DNA of 32,076 nt from a virus. The stretch lies in IMG/VR virus record IMGVR_UViG_3300025141_000451, positions 1-32,076 of that record; one strand, given 5' to 3'. The notes under the pieces are model-generated. The model was not told the origin of the DNA. It saw nothing but the letters and a program-made list of their open reading frames with translations, and searched no databases. Made by a program: the position numbers and the translations under genes. Of this stretch, positions 23,681-30,578 are shown in pieces (within the stretch, counting starts at the first letter, position 1; the number at the start of each line of letters is the position of its first letter).

Positions 23681-23909
23681 GAAATACGATAAGAAACACC
23701 TATACAGATACACACCTGATGTTATGAAACTAATCGTTAAGATAGTTAAATACTCTAAAGGTGGTTTGGATAAAGACGAGATAAGAGAACTGGGAGAGGA
23801 TTTGTTAGACATTGCTTTAAGAATACTTGAAGAAGTATTTGAAGATGCCTGTCCTAAGTGTAATAAGTCGCCTTGTGTATGTCCTAAATCTGCCATAGCG
23901 ATACCTTAA
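23673..23909 (+). CDS. Small protein with C-terminal Cys cluster, unknown
   Basis: A 78-aa helical protein ending CPKCNKSPCVCPK, a four-cysteine cluster that could bind a zinc ion. No family recognised. The ATG lies inside the last codons of the preceding gene (8-base overlap), with GGGGGAGGA as a strong ribosome site, so it is co-translated with the one-TM protein. Its stop overlaps, tail to tail, the stop of the convergent minus-strand gene, ending the late plus-strand block. Confidence 0.55.
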   Translation: MSKKYDKKHLYRYTPDVMKLIVKIVKYSKGGLDKDEIRELGEDLLDIALRILEEVFEDACPKCNKSPCVCPKSAIAIP

Positions 23910-24205
23910 CGAGGTTTATTCAGATTGGCTTCTATTTGTTTCAATAGGTTATTTAACCTATCATCATTTAGAAGCTCTTCTGGGTTATTCTGTGTATCAT
24001 CATTAAACCAAACCAGTTGTAGCTCTACCCTATCTACATACATTAGCTTTCCGTTGTTCAATAATACCTGAAGTTTGTAAGGCCATTGAGGATCTACATC
24101 TATTATCATTCCAATCAGAATGATGTATTGATAGTTGTCTCCACCCAACCAATCTAGATGCCTCATTGCACATAATGCTCCCTTATACTCTTGATGCATT
24201 ACCAT
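23906..24205 (-). CDS. Minus-strand small protein, start uncertain
   Basis: A roughly 97-100-aa protein with GALCAMRHLDWLGGDNYQY and MIIDVDPQWPYKLQVLLNNG, a plausible folded domain of unknown function, ending in an acidic tail. The start is unresolved. The open frame can run back to 24313, but only a TTG stands there. The first ATG is at 24205 (next at 24199) and neither has a good ribosome site. A separate short frame with a good ribosome site ends exactly here (see 24199-24246). It converges with the late genes and its end overlaps the last late gene by 4 bases. Confidence 0.55.
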   Translation of the reverse strand: MVMHQEYKGALCAMRHLDWLGGDNYQYIILIGMIIDVDPQWPYKLQVLLNNGKLMYVDRVELQLVWFNDDTQNNPEELLNDDRLNNLLKQIEANLNKPR

Positions 24206-24246
24206 ACTGATGCACTGAGGGGATGCTTGTTCTTTACTGTTGCCAT
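24199..24246 (-). CDS. 15-residue leader ORF overlapping the next start (TAATG)
   Basis: On the minus strand an AGGAAA ribosome site (about 24257-24252) precedes an ATG at 24246 by 7 bases. The frame reads MATVKNKHPLSASVW and stops at 24201-24199. The stop forms TAATG with an in-frame ATG of the downstream minus gene. Either this peptide couples translation to the downstream gene, or the two are one protein broken by a single-base frameshift (re-reading one base gives ...SVWVMHQEYKGAL...). The sequence alone cannot decide, but the absence of a ribosome site for the larger frame favours one of these two. Confidence 0.45.
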   Translation of the reverse strand: MATVKNKHPLSASVW

Positions 24247-24341
24247 TTTTATTTCCTGTTGTTATGTTAAGATGTTCTACCAATCTTAGTTTAAGTATAA
24301 CAGGTTCGATCAAAATGTATAAGTTATTTTAAATAAAAATG

Positions 24342-24370
24342 AAATGTAAAAGAAATGTAAATAAATGTAA
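24342..24370 (+). repeat. Three phased AAATGTAA direct repeats
   Basis: AAATGTAA occurs at 24342-24349, 24353-24360 and 24363-24370, spaced 11 and 10 bases, that is one per helical turn on the same face of DNA. A related AAATGTAT sits at 24313-24320. The same octamer recurs in phased pairs in the other two non-coding regions. Iteron-type binding sites for a replication or regulatory protein are the likely reading. Confidence 0.65.
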
Positions 24371-24437
24371 TCATTGAATACAAATACTATTTACAAAGTA
24401 TAGTTACTACTGAGGGGAGGAGGAGAGAGAGAGCTAT

Positions 24438-24473
24438 AACCGGTAGAACGGCGCCAGCCAGTTCGTTACGGTT
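24438..24473. other. GC-rich imperfect hairpin in an AT desert
   Basis: Arms AACCG/CGGTT (24438-24442 and 24469-24473), GAAC/GTTC (24446-24449 and 24461-24464) and GGC/GCC (24450-24452 and 24457-24459) nest into one hairpin with a short apical loop GCCA. It is flanked by a purine tract on one side and a long AT-rich block on the other. It could be a cruciform or single-strand initiation element of an origin, or a terminator, since TTTATTAT follows. The function is inference. Confidence 0.45.
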
Positions 24474-24715
24474 TATTATCTATAGTATTATTATTTATTA
24501 TTATTATAGATCTATAGATTAAATCTATTATAGTTACTCTTAATCTATTTCTATTATTATAATCTTCTATTTATTTAAAAAGATTATTATAAATCTTCTA
24601 TTTACAGAGTATTATTTAACTGTTCTACTAATCAACAACTTACATGAATACAGAAATAAGAGGAATAGTTTATGAATACATTTACATTACATTACATTAA
24701 ATAAAACATAATAGG

Positions 24716-24743
24716 TTTATCTTTATAAGAGAAGGGTTATACT
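24716..24743 (+). promoter_or_regulatory. Promoter candidate for the nuclease transcript
   Basis: TTTATC (24716-24721), a 16-base spacer, then TATACT (24738-24743). This matches the second promoter type seen at 28583-28611 and 29833-29860. The expected start, about 24750, coincides with the first base of the 16-bp stem, so the mRNA would begin as a hairpin. The -35 box is weak against a housekeeping consensus. Confidence 0.38.
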
Positions 24744-24750
24744 TATTGAT

Positions 24751-24827
24751 GAGGAGGGGATGTTGTTTTTTATTATTCTTCTTGTTGTTGAAAGAGTATG
24801 TTCTGCCATTTACAACATCTCCTCCTC
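24751..24827 (+). promoter_or_regulatory. 16-bp hairpin at the 5' end of the nuclease leader, hides a ribosome site
   Basis: GAGGAGGGGATGTTGT (24751-24766) pairs with ACAACATCTCCTCCTC (24812-24827): 15 Watson-Crick pairs plus one G-U, with a 45-base loop. The 5' arm contains a perfect AGGAGG and an ATG (24760). In RNA the stem would hide both. This is a very stable structure in otherwise AT-rich sequence. Confidence 0.7.
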
Positions 24828-24852
24828 TCTTTGTCACCTAAGCTTCGATTAA
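24760..24852 (+). CDS. Possible 30-aa hydrophobic leader peptide
   Basis: From ATG 24760 the frame reads MLFFIILLVVERVCSAIYN... for 30 codons to TAA at 24850-24852. AGGAGG is only 2 bases upstream, closer than usual, and lies in the hairpin stem. The N-terminus is strongly hydrophobic, like small membrane peptides or type I toxins. An overlapping frame from ATG 24749 (MRRGCCFLLFFLLL..., stop at 24841) is equally hydrophobic because the DNA is T-rich, so hydrophobicity is weak evidence. What makes it noteworthy is that its stop directly abuts the element able to pair with the nuclease ribosome site. Confidence 0.3.
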   Translation: MLFFIILLVVERVCSAIYNISSSLCHLSFD

Positions 24853-24973
24853 TCTCCGATACAAAACTTTTAGTCAATAGCTTAACCTCTCCTCAGTAAA
24901 ATGGGGGGAGGCTTCTCTCCAAAATAAGTTAGATAATACACTTCGATCAGTATAGTTATTACTGTATCGGAGA
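24853..24973 (+). promoter_or_regulatory. Long-range pairing that can hide the nuclease ribosome site
   Basis: TCTCCGATACA (24853-24863) is the exact complement of TGTATCGGAGA (24963-24973), which contains the GGAGA ribosome site of the nuclease gene (ATG 24979). Between them lies another hairpin, CCTCTCC/GGGGAGG (24886-24892 and 24905-24911). If both arms are on one RNA, the nuclease would be shut off until something opens this 11-bp helix. The regulatory role is inference. Confidence 0.5.
24949..24964. repeat. 16-bp dyad AGTATAGTTATTACTG (second copy of 24397-24412)
   Basis: AGTATAGTTA(T/C)TACTG is present at 24397-24412 and 24949-24964, 15 of 16 bases identical. The second copy has perfect CAGTA/TACTG arms, 7 bases apart. 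The pair brackets the non-coding region, one beside the presumed origin and one just before the nuclease start. Candidate operator or binding site of a dimeric protein. Confidence 0.45.
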
Positions 24974-24978
24974 CATTG

Positions 24979-25518
24979 ATGACTAACTTATTTGAGCGCT
25001 TACAGAGCGCAGCTCGCCCGTATGAGGTGAGAGTAGGAGAGATCCTGACAACAGAAAACTGGCACCCTATCCCATCTCAGTCGATGGATTATGATGTGCT
25101 ACTATACAACCCCTTAGAAGATAAACACTTAAAAGTAGAAGTGAAGGTTCAAGAGGGGTGCAATAAGAATAAAAAACCTTATGACACTGCATGTATTGAG
25201 ATAAAAGAATACCAATACAGACATGATGATTATGTATGGAGCCATTGGCTAACAGCACCATTCGACATCATGGTGCATTACAATAAGTTTAATGATACTG
25301 CTTACCTCTTCAATGGACAGATCCATAGGTCATGGGCGTGGGGCAAAAGACATAACAGACGCCGCTCTTTTCAGGTAAAAACTGAATACATAAAGAGCGG
25401 TTGGACAGATGTAAATGCTGGGTTCTTTATGTCTATACCATACAAACCTACCACGAACAGGAAAAAAACATCTGCTATTAATGTGGGGAGGCTCCATGAA
25501 CCTATTTCAGATACCTAA
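24979..25518 (+). CDS. PD-(D/E)XK-like nuclease
   Basis: A 179-aa protein. SMDYDVLLYN followed 14 residues later by LKVEVKVQE matches the D...(E)xK catalytic core of the PD-(D/E)XK nuclease fold (Asp about 37-39, Glu 54, Lys 56). The N-terminus begins with a short helix (MTNLFERLQSAARPYEVRVGEIL), as in small resolvase- or recycling-type enzymes of this superfamily. It may cut host DNA or process phage junctions; the substrate is unknown. ATG 24979 is preferred over the TTG 3 bases earlier because GGAGA lies 5 bases before it. Its end overlaps the next gene by 23 bases. Confidence 0.55.
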   Translation: MTNLFERLQSAARPYEVRVGEILTTENWHPIPSQSMDYDVLLYNPLEDKHLKVEVKVQEGCNKNKKPYDTACIEIKEYQYRHDDYVWSHWLTAPFDIMVHYNKFNDTAYLFNGQIHRSWAWGKRHNRRRSFQVKTEYIKSGWTDVNAGFFMSIPYKPTTNRKKTSAINVGRLHEPISDT

Positions 25519-25762
25519 GGTAACATTAAAACAAGGCGATCTTTTCGTGCTGACAAATAAAACAAACAACAACAATCAAGCGATGATGATACTAACTCAG
25601 TTCGATCTGATAGATGAAGAAACTGCGGTATTAGAGCTAACCTCACCTGATGACAACTCTCAACGCATAGTAGGAGAACTAAGATTAAATCAAGGTTTCT
25701 ATGTGAATGGCCAACTACTCGACTGCCACATAGATTACACACCCATCTTGGGGGAGGCATAA
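25496..25762 (+). CDS. Small protein, function unknown
   Basis: An 88-aa protein (MNLFQIPKVTLKQGDLFVLTN...), beta-rich with alternating hydrophobic residues and a C-terminal HIDYTPILGEA. No motif recognised. The ATG at 25496 has GGGGAGG just upstream and overlaps the nuclease end, so it is translated with it. It could be a partner or inhibitor of the nuclease, but that is only a guess from coupling. Confidence 0.5.
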   Translation: MNLFQIPKVTLKQGDLFVLTNKTNNNNQAMMILTQFDLIDEETAVLELTSPDDNSQRIVGELRLNQGFYVNGQLLDCHIDYTPILGEA

Positions 25763-27353: not shown

Positions 27354-27383
27354 TGTATAAGCCGGTTGATTGGCTATTTACAA
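27354..27383 (-). promoter_or_regulatory. Leftward promoter candidate (TTGTAA-N18-TATACA)
   Basis: On the minus strand TTGTAA (27383-27378), an 18-base spacer and TATACA (27359-27354). The -35 and the first half of the spacer (TTTGTAAATAGCCAAT) are identical to the promoter at 27503 facing the other way. RNA from here would run to the hairpin at 27136-27118, about 230 bases, with no good ORF. Confidence 0.35.
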
Positions 27384-27517
27384 ATGTATTACGAGTTTTT
27401 ACATCATTTTTACAAGTGGCCTCCTCTAAAATGTTGAATGGCTTTCTAAAGATTTACAAAAAAACCTGCCATAAAAGGCGACCTTTCTTTTTGTTTTATC
27501 TTTTGTAAATAGCCAAT
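27369..27517. repeat. 16-bp inverted repeat carrying two divergent promoter starts
   Basis: ATTGGCTATTTACAAA (27369-27384) is the perfect reverse complement of TTTGTAAATAGCCAAT (27502-27517); allowing one mismatch the arms extend to 20 bp. Both arms contain TTGTAA plus ATAGCCAAT, so each carries the -35 and part of the spacer of an outward-facing promoter. A second 10-bp repeat, ACCTGCCATA (27464-27473) and TATGGCAGGT (27566-27575), overlaps the right side. Confidence 0.6.
27474..27497 (+). terminator. Short hairpin with T-rich tail
   Basis: AAAGG-CGA-CCTTT (27474-27486) is followed by CTTTTTGTTTTATCTTTTG. The 5-bp stem is short but the T-rich tail is long. It could end plus-strand RNA that starts in the 27331-27361 area (TTGACG-N19-TATAAG) and insulate the promoter at 27503. 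Confidence 0.4.
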
Positions 27518-28611: not shown

Positions 28612-28642
28612 AGTAATGGCTTACATACAGGAGGAAAACAAC

Positions 28643-29158
28643 ATGAAGCTTAAACACTGGAAAAAGAAGGCTATGAAAGATGATGCTGACTATTCAGATG
28701 TCGTCTATACGCCGAAGGATCTTGCTTTTAGAATAGTGGATCACTTCAAGCCGTGGGGTTCTGTCTTAGAACCTTGCTGTGGCACTGAGCAGGGATACAT
28801 TGATCACCCAGCTTTTACACATTGGTGCGAAGTAAGAAAAGGAAAAGATTTCTTTGATTACGAAAAGTTCCACGATTGGATTATAACAAATCCACCTTAT
28901 TCAACATTCGCTCAGTTCTTGGAAGGTTCCCTATACACGGCCAATGAAATCGTTCTAGGGCCAATCAAAGCTGACCAGATCTTCAGTTCAAAGAAGCGTC
29001 TAAGGGTTATTAAAGAAGAAGGCTTTGGTATTAGAGAAATCGTCTTGATGGACACACCACCGAAACCTTGGCCTCAAACAGGCTTTCAATACTGTGCCGT
29101 CTGGCTTAGTCGAAACTACTTTGGCCCTATTAACTTTACAGATTGGAGGACAAAATAA
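28643..29158 (+). CDS. DNA adenine N6-methyltransferase, small
   Basis: A 171-aa enzyme. GSVLEPCCGTEQGYID (about residues 37-52) is the SAM-binding motif and ITNPPYSTF (about 85-93) the catalytic NPPY, both of N6-adenine methyltransferases. The protein is short and lacks an obvious target-recognition domain, so its sequence specificity must come from few residues or a partner. ATG 28643 is chosen over an in-frame ATG 27 bases earlier because AGGAGG precedes it properly. It overlaps the second methyltransferase (TAATG), so the two are co-translated and may act together. Confidence 0.85.
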   Translation: MKLKHWKKKAMKDDADYSDVVYTPKDLAFRIVDHFKPWGSVLEPCCGTEQGYIDHPAFTHWCEVRKGKDFFDYEKFHDWIITNPPYSTFAQFLEGSLYTANEIVLGPIKADQIFSSKKRLRVIKEEGFGIREIVLMDTPPKPWPQTGFQYCAVWLSRNYFGPINFTDWRTK

Positions 29159-29814
29159 TGTTAAATCAAAAAGGAACACCATTTAAAACAATAGTAATAG
29201 ATCCGCCATGGAAGTTCATTGGCGGTGGTAATCGTAATCCGGATCAGCATTATGACGCAATGAAGCTTAAGGACATCATCCCTCTTTGCAAAGATACACT
29301 TGATAACTACAACATTGAGGATAATGCACATTGCTACATTTGGTGCATCAACATGCACATTGACAAAGCTCTAGATCTAATGAAAGAACTAGGCTTCGAA
29401 TACAAGACGAACATTGCTTGGGTTAAGAACTCATTTGGTTTAGGATACTACTTCAGAGGCCAGCACGAGCTTTGTCTCTTTGGCGTTAAGGGTAAAGGTA
29501 GCCAAGTGAGAACAGGCCATAAGAATGTATCCTCAGTCATTAAAGCGAAGAAGCGAAAGCATAGTCAAAAACCAGATGAGTTCTACGATCTTGTTGAGAA
29601 AAGAAGCTTTGGCCCTTATCTTGAACTATTCAGTCGTCATACACGAAAAGGTTGGACAATGTGGGGTAATGAAGTAGGAAAGCTTGATGACCCAATTGAC
29701 GAACCGTCAATTGGAGAGGTATTAGATCTCTATCCACCTTCAAATGGCCCATTAGAGGAACGAAACATTTGGACAGAAGATCGTGCAAAAAAGACAATAG
29801 TTAAGGTTCGTTAA
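29158..29814 (+). CDS. MT-A70-type adenine methyltransferase
   Basis: A 218-aa protein with TIVIDPPWKF (about residues 11-20), whose DPPW is the catalytic motif of the MT-A70 family, and later YLELFSRHTRKGWTMWGNEVG, the matching SAM-side conserved region. HSQKPDEFYDL before it is also typical. MT-A70 enzymes in phages modify DNA adenine in specific sequence contexts. ATG 29158 follows GGAGGA. Together with the preceding enzyme it gives this genome two different adenine methyltransferases and no visible paired restriction enzyme. Confidence 0.9.
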   Translation: MLNQKGTPFKTIVIDPPWKFIGGGNRNPDQHYDAMKLKDIIPLCKDTLDNYNIEDNAHCYIWCINMHIDKALDLMKELGFEYKTNIAWVKNSFGLGYYFRGQHELCLFGVKGKGSQVRTGHKNVSSVIKAKKRKHSQKPDEFYDLVEKRSFGPYLELFSRHTRKGWTMWGNEVGKLDDPIDEPSIGEVLDLYPPSNGPLEERNIWTEDRAKKTIVKVR

Positions 29815-29892: not shown

Positions 29893-30216
29893 ATGTCTAG
29901 AAATAAAGGTGGTATGGTGTATGAGAAACCTCCATACTGGAAGGGTAGTAGATACCCAGATAAGTTTTTTGAAGGTCGCGTCTTAGACAAAACCTTCAAT
30001 CTTTATAACTCAGCTCTTAAAGAGCATTATGAAGCGAAAGTTGTGTTAGTTGATGATAAGCTTCCACGGGTTAGGCTTTACATTCCCCACTTTGACCAAC
30101 AAGCTTGGTGCAAATGGGCGGATGGTAGGTATAACCAGATCCCAATGGCGGGTAGATGGAAGATGCAAACAGTAAAAGGCACCCCAAGGGCGTGCGACTG
30201 GAGGATAAGATTATGA
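29893..30216 (+). CDS. Small protein, function unknown
   Basis: A 107-aa basic, aromatic-rich protein (VYEKPPYWKGSRYPDKFFEG ... FDQQAWCKWADGRYNQIPMAGRW). No family recognised. The ribosome site GGGAG precedes ATG 29893. Its stop overlaps the start of the sigma-like gene (ATGA), so it is made together with it. Possibly a DNA- or RNA-polymerase-associated factor given that coupling, but this is speculative. Confidence 0.55.
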   Translation: MSRNKGGMVYEKPPYWKGSRYPDKFFEGRVLDKTFNLYNSALKEHYEAKVVLVDDKLPRVRLYIPHFDQQAWCKWADGRYNQIPMAGRWKMQTVKGTPRACDWRIRL

Positions 30217-30578
30217 ACATGTATCACAAACATGCTTGGTGGGTTGGTTTAAAAGATGAAGATGATAAGATCTGGTATCGCTACCATAAATCATACAAGC
30301 AAACTACAATCGATTGGATTATTGACCAAAATGAGTGTTGTTATCAGACACATTCATGGGATGACGAGGATGCTGGAGAAGACATTGAACAGCCTGACCC
30401 TATGGAAATACTGGGGCCCTTATTAAAACACATCTCAGAGTTGGATCAGAACATCCTAATGCTACGATACGGACATAACTTAAAGTGGCGTGAAATAGGC
30501 GATAAGTTAGGTTACAACATTAGTTACTTATGGAAGCGTGAAAAGCGAGCAATGAAACTACTTAGAAGCTTGTTATGA
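30213..30578 (+). CDS. Sigma-70 region-4-like transcription factor
   Basis: A 121-aa protein. The C-terminal 55 residues (ISELDQNILMLRYGHNLKWREIGDKLGYNISYLWKREKRAMKLLRSL) match sigma-70 region 4: 'L-x-x-L-R-Y ... E-I-x-x-x-L-G ... V/L ... R-A-x-x-x-L-R'. That helix-turn-helix in sigma factors contacts the -35 box. The first half is unlike region 2, so it is not a complete sigma factor; it may combine with another protein or act on host polymerase as an appropriator. ATG 30213 after GGAGGA is chosen over an in-frame upstream ATG at 30156. Its stop overlaps the next gene (ATGA). Confidence 0.7.
   Translation: MNMYHKHAWWVGLKDEDDKIWYRYHKSYKQTTIDWIIDQNECCYQTHSWDDEDAGEDIEQPDPMEILGPLLKHISELDQNILMLRYGHNLKWREIGDKLGYNISYLWKREKRAMKLLRSLL

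Follow-up and report, generated by a model that had tools for sequence, protein, structure and literature searches.

What controls the translation of a nuclease-like gene whose upstream region holds a sequence complementary to its own ribosome binding site is the question raised by this locus. The window, i.e. the whole stretch of DNA analyzed, is a single virus record of 32,076 bases (IMG/VR IMGVR_UViG_3300025141_000451), derived from an uncultivated, probably marine, phage. It contains SU10-type portal and adaptor genes, and no relative of the portal was detected among named phages. A sequence-only reading had proposed translational attenuation, in which a ribosome reaching the stop codon of an upstream mini-ORF would cover an inhibitor arm and free the ribosome site of the nuclease gene. 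All its coordinates were correct when rechecked on the sequence, and a stretch aimed at the ribosome site of this gene was upheld by our analysis, whereas the attenuation mechanism was not.

The nuclease-like gene and its relatives

The gene and its ribosome binding site are as follows:
24979–25518, plus strand: nuclease-like gene, 179 aa, with an invariant D39...E54-V-K56
24969–24972, plus strand: Shine-Dalgarno GGAG of the nuclease-like gene, target of 24853–24863

The D39...E54-V-K56 residues, together with other invariant residues, are common to six full-length copies of the protein. The nuclease-like protein did not match any entry in Pfam, PHROG or PDB, and one of its relatives showed a weak Pfam match (E = 0.14) to XisH. 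Since XisH is a member of the PD-(D/E)xK superfamily, this match points to a PD-(D/E)xK nuclease, and the PD-(D/E)xK-like motif of the deduced product also suggests that it is a nuclease. Structure models of the protein were too poor for use (mean pLDDT 41–42). The target proteins have 160–179 aa, contain an ExK motif and, by inspection, are not hydrophobic.

Near and distant searches identified no detectable relative of the gene in named phages, plasmids or bacterial genomes, and the comparison was thus limited to IMG/VR contigs. Profile and pattern searches revealed six further loci (L084, L085, L137, L144, L145 and L152), so that seven were compared, including the window; L084 and L085 are near-identical to each other, and L145 is the same contig as L086, with the gene truncated by the contig end. 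The full-length proteins of the relatives are 41–47 % identical to that of the window. A near-identical contig, L001, has zero differences from the window over 24301–25520 and, therefore, provides no evolutionary evidence. The 16-nt repeat was located by a scan in 47 stretches, and just one of these, in the near-identical contig, contained two copies.

In L145 and L152, a gene for an MT-A70 methyltransferase is situated directly upstream of the unit formed by the putative small RNA described below and the nuclease-like gene. The window also contains a DNA methyltransferase-like gene (28616–29158, PHROG 799) followed by an MT-A70 methyltransferase gene (29143–29814). The minus-strand gene at 23906–24313, whose product has no PHROG or Pfam match, shares its upstream region with the putative small RNA, and the intergenic region 24314–24978 is thus divergent; minus-strand genes also occur at the matching position in L089.

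Complementarity to the ribosome binding site

The sequence complementary to the Shine-Dalgarno is situated upstream of the gene:
24853–24863, plus strand: antisense stretch, TCTCCGATACA, complementary to the nuclease Shine-Dalgarno

As described in the sequence-only reading, the 11-nt arm TCTCCGATACA is the exact reverse complement of TGTATCGGAGA (24963–24973), GGAG included; both arms are separated by a gap of 99 nt. By itself, an 11-bp inverted repeat is not rare, because the window contains eight such repeats without any mismatch (at least 11 bp, gaps of up to 120 nt), and shuffling of a 677-nt region produced such a repeat in about 11 % of trials. The linkers, i.e. the stretches between the upstream hairpin and a GC-rich hairpin, were delimited by these hairpins, although after the pairing was first noticed. 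The linker of the window nevertheless matched its own ribosome site with a shuffle p of 0.0006. A pairing as strong as that of the window was present in 8 of 4407 genomic segments, and the pairing with the nuclease gene ranked first among the 27 gene starts tested in the window.

The linker pairs with the Shine-Dalgarno region of its own gene in five of the six relatives, and hence in six of the seven loci overall, with different letters; because complementarity is kept while the letters differ, the pairing covaries. The pairing block is UCUCCGAUACA in the window (11 bp), CUUCAGGAUA in L144 (10 bp, one G-U), CCAGGUCAA in L137 (9 bp) and CCGGAUCA in L152 (8 bp); that of L084 is split in two, CUCCU and AAUGAAU. 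Shuffle p values for the linkers were 0.0018 (L137), 0.0038 (L144), 0.0032 (L084), 0.0076 (L085) and 0.012 (L152), and no pairing of the linker with the Shine-Dalgarno was found in L145 (p = 0.36). Fisher's combination gave p = 3e-7 for shuffles over five loci (the window, L137, L144, L145 and L152) and p = 7e-6 against genomic segments over six loci. The true assignment of partners was the best of 720 permutations (-86.0 vs. a mean of -57.2 kcal/mol). In the aligned loci, five of the ten pairs of the antisense helix were changed on both sides, with a covariation of 0.56 compared to 0.215 in shuffled alignments and at most 0.16 when the helix was slid; since the alignment of the helix was set by the pairing itself, the alignment-free tests weigh more. 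The predicted gain from duplex formation was -8.6 to -14.0 kcal/mol in all seven loci. These comparisons of sequences indicate that the match to the ribosome site exceeds chance, and covariation in relatives, which the sequence-only reading had named as a check, was found both for this pairing and, in four relatives, for the stem of the upstream hairpin.

The promoter-like site and the hairpin upstream of the antisense stretch

Three features precede the antisense stretch:
24716–24747, plus strand: P2, promoter-like site of the proposed small RNA, TTTATC-16-TATACTTATT, at the same position in L137, L152 and L084
24751–24827, plus strand: hairpin 1, with a 16-bp stem (24751–24766 with 24812–24827) and a 45-nt loop
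24760–24852, plus strand: 30-codon frame, judged non-functional because of its 2-nt Shine-Dalgarno spacing and its lack of conservation

The promoter-like boxes (TTTATC, 24716–24721, and TATACT, 24738–24743, 16 nt apart) and the 16-bp hairpin were present as noted previously. The TATACTTATT box of P2 differs by one letter from the family motif TATAGTTATT, and the P2-like site is weaker in L144 (AGTATATTTATC) and in L145; the -35 boxes of the promoter-like sites are weak. In the stem of hairpin 1, GAGGAGGGGATGTTGT pairs with ACAACATCTCCTCCTC, including one G-U, and two of 200 shuffles reached a 16-bp stem. In place of hairpin 1, four relatives have a short hairpin whose loop, AAGTCAGGC, is conserved; its stem has different letters in each of them and is always paired (100 %), both partners having changed in 5 of the 6 pairs.

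The AAGTCAGGC loop is complementary to ATGCCTGACTT, comprising the start codon and the next codons, in L137, L144, L145 and L152 (p 0.001–0.0065; one G-U in L152), four loci that share ancestry and whose contacts with the start codon are not independent. The order of this contact and that of the linker fits a single antiparallel duplex, and both contacts are clear only in L137, L144 and L152. Hairpin 1 of the window showed no contact with the start codon (p = 0.80), and co-folding extended the main duplex of the window weakly towards this codon.

The hairpin of the window was also said to hide a ribosome site and an ATG. Both AGGAGG (24752–24757), a sequence occurring nine times in the window, and the ATG (24760) are indeed there, but their 2-nt spacing is too close for good initiation. 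The 30-codon frame starting at this ATG was correctly described, with its stop (24850–24852) directly before the arm at 24853. A comparable mini-ORF is absent in L137 and L144; L084 contains a 15-codon frame with its stop inside the antisense stretch, and in L152 a frame spans the whole region uninterrupted.

A terminator-like hairpin and a promoter-like element between the complementary arms

The sequence-only reading did not include a hairpin at 24886–24911, a promoter-like repeat at 24949–24964 and a local hairpin at 24941–24972, each of which is situated between the two arms or overlaps them. The first two, and the small RNA that we propose, are as follows:
24886–24920, plus strand: terminator-like hairpin with a 10-bp stem (CCTCTCCTCA/TGGGGGGAGG), followed by a weak tail of pyrimidines, CTTCTCTCC
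24949–24964, plus strand: P3, promoter-like element AGTATAGTTATTACTG immediately preceding the nuclease gene, with a second copy at 24397–24412
24748–24922, plus strand: proposed small antisense RNA, about 160–175 nt, ends approximate, with an anatomy common to all six relatives

The GC-rich paired part of the terminator-like hairpin spans 24886–24911, and a terminator scan did not score the hairpin of the window as a terminator. The tail of the GC-rich hairpin is U-rich in L137, L145 and L152 and mixed U/C in L144, L084 and L085. In all seven loci, a conserved ATAGTTAT promoter-like element precedes the start codon by 27–49 nt (47–49 nt in four of them), which makes a start between the arms probable for the main nuclease mRNA; the sequence-only reading had itself named such a start as refuting its model. 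The seven loci share the same order of parts: a ATAGTTAT-like element, a hairpin, the linker, the GC-rich hairpin, a second ATAGTTAT-like element and the ribosome site. A potential pairing of the 5′ end of the first transcript with the terminator arm (24408–24420 with 24886–24898) was discarded, as inspection showed that it is not kept in L085.

The AGTATAGTTATTACTG element (core ATAGTTAT) is repeated before several genes in the window, L084, L085, L088, L089, L137, L144, L145 and L152, often with A[GC]TTTT 4–8 nt before it, and an element with the ATAGTTAT core is also found upstream of a 106-aa gene at 5754 in L089. By analogy with phiEco32-like phages (PMC8948821), a phage sigma factor may recognize the ATAGTTAT element. 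A small protein with a sigma-70 region 4, and no other sigma domain, is encoded in the window (30156–30578, E 4e-6) and in L137 (4896–5288, E 1.5e-7), and is a candidate phage transcription factor.

Predicted folding of the ribosome binding site

The Shine-Dalgarno is enclosed in a local two-tier hairpin, or lock:
24922–24993, plus strand: outer stem of the local lock (24922–24932 with 24983–24993), enclosing the ribosome site and the start codon, probability 0.66–1.0
24941–24972, plus strand: local lock hairpin (24941–24952 with 24960–24972), containing the Shine-Dalgarno, probability 0.95–1.0

In the predicted ensemble of 24750–24999, the distant arm paired with a probability of 0.0 and the local lock formed with a probability of about 1.0. 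The lock has a covarying counterpart in the relatives, with a 5-bp Shine-Dalgarno core paired in five of the five aligned loci. For RNAs starting at P2, the predicted mean accessibility of the Shine-Dalgarno was 0.01–0.42 across all loci. For RNAs starting at P3, the Shine-Dalgarno was predicted to be open in the window, L084 and L085 and still closed in L137, L144, L145 and L152; a start at P3 was hence rejected as a general means of unlocking, because it is predicted for the first three only. In the long RNAs of L137, L152, L084 and L085, cis pairing between the antisense stretch and the ribosome site was predicted.

A proposed tandem small RNA acting in trans

The explanation that best accommodates these results places a small RNA gene directly upstream, in the same orientation, with a product that would pair in trans with the ribosome site of the nuclease-like mRNA; judging from the sequences compared, we assign this explanation a probability of about 0.58. 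The small RNA would start at P2, near 24748, fold into hairpin 1, carry the antisense stretch at 24853–24863 and end at the hairpin at 24886–24911. The nuclease mRNA would start separately at P3, at about 24963, and be bound in trans by the small RNA over its Shine-Dalgarno; in four relatives, the loop of the hairpin replacing hairpin 1 would additionally cover the start codon. Translation would be blocked while the small RNA is in excess and relieved once it is outnumbered or lost, and transcripts reading through from upstream would be kept silent by the local hairpin around the ribosome site. The main argument favoring action in trans is the conservation, between both partners, of a terminator-like hairpin and a promoter-like element. 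It is also favored by the folding predicted for the window, where cis pairing has a probability of 0.0 and the RNA from P3 has an open Shine-Dalgarno. Some room is left for action in cis, since the long RNAs of four relatives are predicted to pair in this way.

Alternative explanations

An alternative that we consider unlikely, yet deserving attention, is that regulation occurs only in cis. Read-through RNAs would then be locked at the ribosome site either by the local stem or by the antisense stretch, a free small RNA being irrelevant, much as early transcripts of the T4 genes e, soc and 49 are kept silent. This alternative agrees with the strong local stem of the window, whose 5-bp core is kept in five aligned loci, with the cis pairing predicted for L137, L152, L084 and L085, and with the 5′ arm of the lock lying at a promoter-like element, an arrangement also described for T4 gene e (PMC3014915). 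However, in all loci the arms remain separated by a terminator-like hairpin and a promoter-like element; moreover, the local stem outcompetes cis pairing in the window, making an antisense stretch acting only in cis redundant there, and opening by a start at P3 is limited to the window, L084 and L085.

A binding site in the DNA appears very improbable. Here, CTCCGATACA and its inverted copy would bind a phage regulator around P3, and RNA pairing would be a by-product; within this divergent intergenic region, the motif adjoins a promoter-like element, and CTYCGAT is found at 24843, 24854 and 24941, with an inverted copy at 24972. Nevertheless, the relatives keep the complementarity and not the sequence, whereas a binding site should keep its letters among close relatives. 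There is equally little reason to favor a functionless complementarity arising from low-complexity purine and pyrimidine tracts: 11-bp inverted repeats do arise by chance in the window and L145 shows no pairing, but both combined p values and the first rank of the true partners among 720 permutations argue against it. Finally, translational attenuation is hardly tenable in spite of the stop at 24852 directly adjoining the arm, because the leader ORF is unconserved and poorly spaced from its Shine-Dalgarno, a terminator-like hairpin and a promoter-like element are situated between the arms, and the nuclease site would not be released by a ribosome that reaches the stop of the mini-ORF, as in the predicted folding the local two-tier hairpin, and not the distant arm, keeps this site locked.

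Other conserved sequences in the vicinity

A second conserved non-coding element is found at 24397–24485 in the window, and in L137 (1640–1735), L144 (2968–3050) and L145 (4335–4420), with a mean column identity of 79 % across the four phages. It consists of a ATAGTTAT-like element, a purine tract (GAGGGGAGGAGGAGAGAGAG) and a hairpin, AACC.GTAGAACGGC[AG]CCAGCC[AG]GTTCGTA.CGGTT. From its sequence it looks like another RNA; it has no Rfam family, and it shows few covarying pairs because it hardly varies. Additionally, a long intergenic region of the window contains a perfect 16-bp inverted repeat, ATTGGCTATTTACAAA (27369–27384 with 27502–27517, 117 nt apart); CTATTTACA also occurs at 24387 and 24598.

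Comparison with known systems

The C4 antisense RNA of P1 is encoded on the same strand as its target. C4 of P1/P7 (RF01695) is the nearest kind of regulator, as it is encoded upstream of its target and also pairs with the ribosome-binding region of the latter; likewise, the RNA proposed here is upstream of its target and could pair with this region in six of the seven loci. C4 retains its scaffold, whereas its pairing stretches change along with the target, and the RNA, with three stem-loops and the pairing loops a′ and b′, is cut by RNase P from a longer transcript (PMC5320573). In contrast, the RNA proposed here would comprise one hairpin, a single-stranded linker and a terminator hairpin, with no three-stem fold, and has an apparent promoter and terminator of its own and a different target. 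The C4 covariance model (RF01695) had no match at the gathering threshold nor up to E = 5, and no Rfam model matched the proposed small RNA, which by analogy would work like C4 and fall outside the C4 family.

Type I antitoxin RNAs such as OrzO and IstR-1 are divergent or antisense to their targets, whereas the putative small RNA is in tandem with its own. As described for OrzO and IstR-1 (PMC3919570, PMC4147584), these RNAs are encoded adjacent to their targets and block translation of the mRNA through limited pairing, and in this they resemble our putative small RNA, situated beside its target and with a potential to pair with its leader. However, type I toxins are small and hydrophobic, unlike the nuclease-like targets of 160–179 aa found here.

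In long transcripts of the T4 genes e, soc, 49 and I-TevI, two of which encode nucleases, the ribosome site is concealed by a local hairpin that has a promoter at its 5′ arm (PMC3014915). The nuclease-like gene shares a ribosome site predicted to be locked in long transcripts and a promoter-like element at the 5′ arm. The account of T4 (PMC3014915) describes no separate antisense RNA at these leader locks like the one proposed here, and in our predictions unlocking of the T4 type by a near promoter is limited to the window, L084 and L085. VpdS and PreS (reviewed in PMC12197685) are also phage-encoded small RNAs, but they act with Hfq on other phage and host genes, whereas the RNA proposed here, with its hairpin, pairing stretch and terminator hairpin, appears dedicated to the neighboring gene.

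Implications for phage small RNAs

To our knowledge, few phage small RNAs have a known target. A review of T4 from 2010 indicated that no trans-acting regulatory RNA of this phage had been functionally characterized (PMC3014915). A limited search of the open-access literature yielded no report of such an element for these phages. We see about even odds that these loci represent a new family of phage small RNAs, each in tandem upstream of a single target, capping the ribosome site and the start codon of a nuclease-like gene and co-evolving with it. If so, the co-evolving small RNA would serve as a dedicated timer for an enzyme that may be harmful. Since the RNA and its target are adjacent and co-vary in six of the seven loci, the pairing partners could be read from the sequence alone. 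The order of parts (a hairpin, a linker complementary to the next ribosome site, a terminator and a promoter) would also provide a recipe to search metagenomes.
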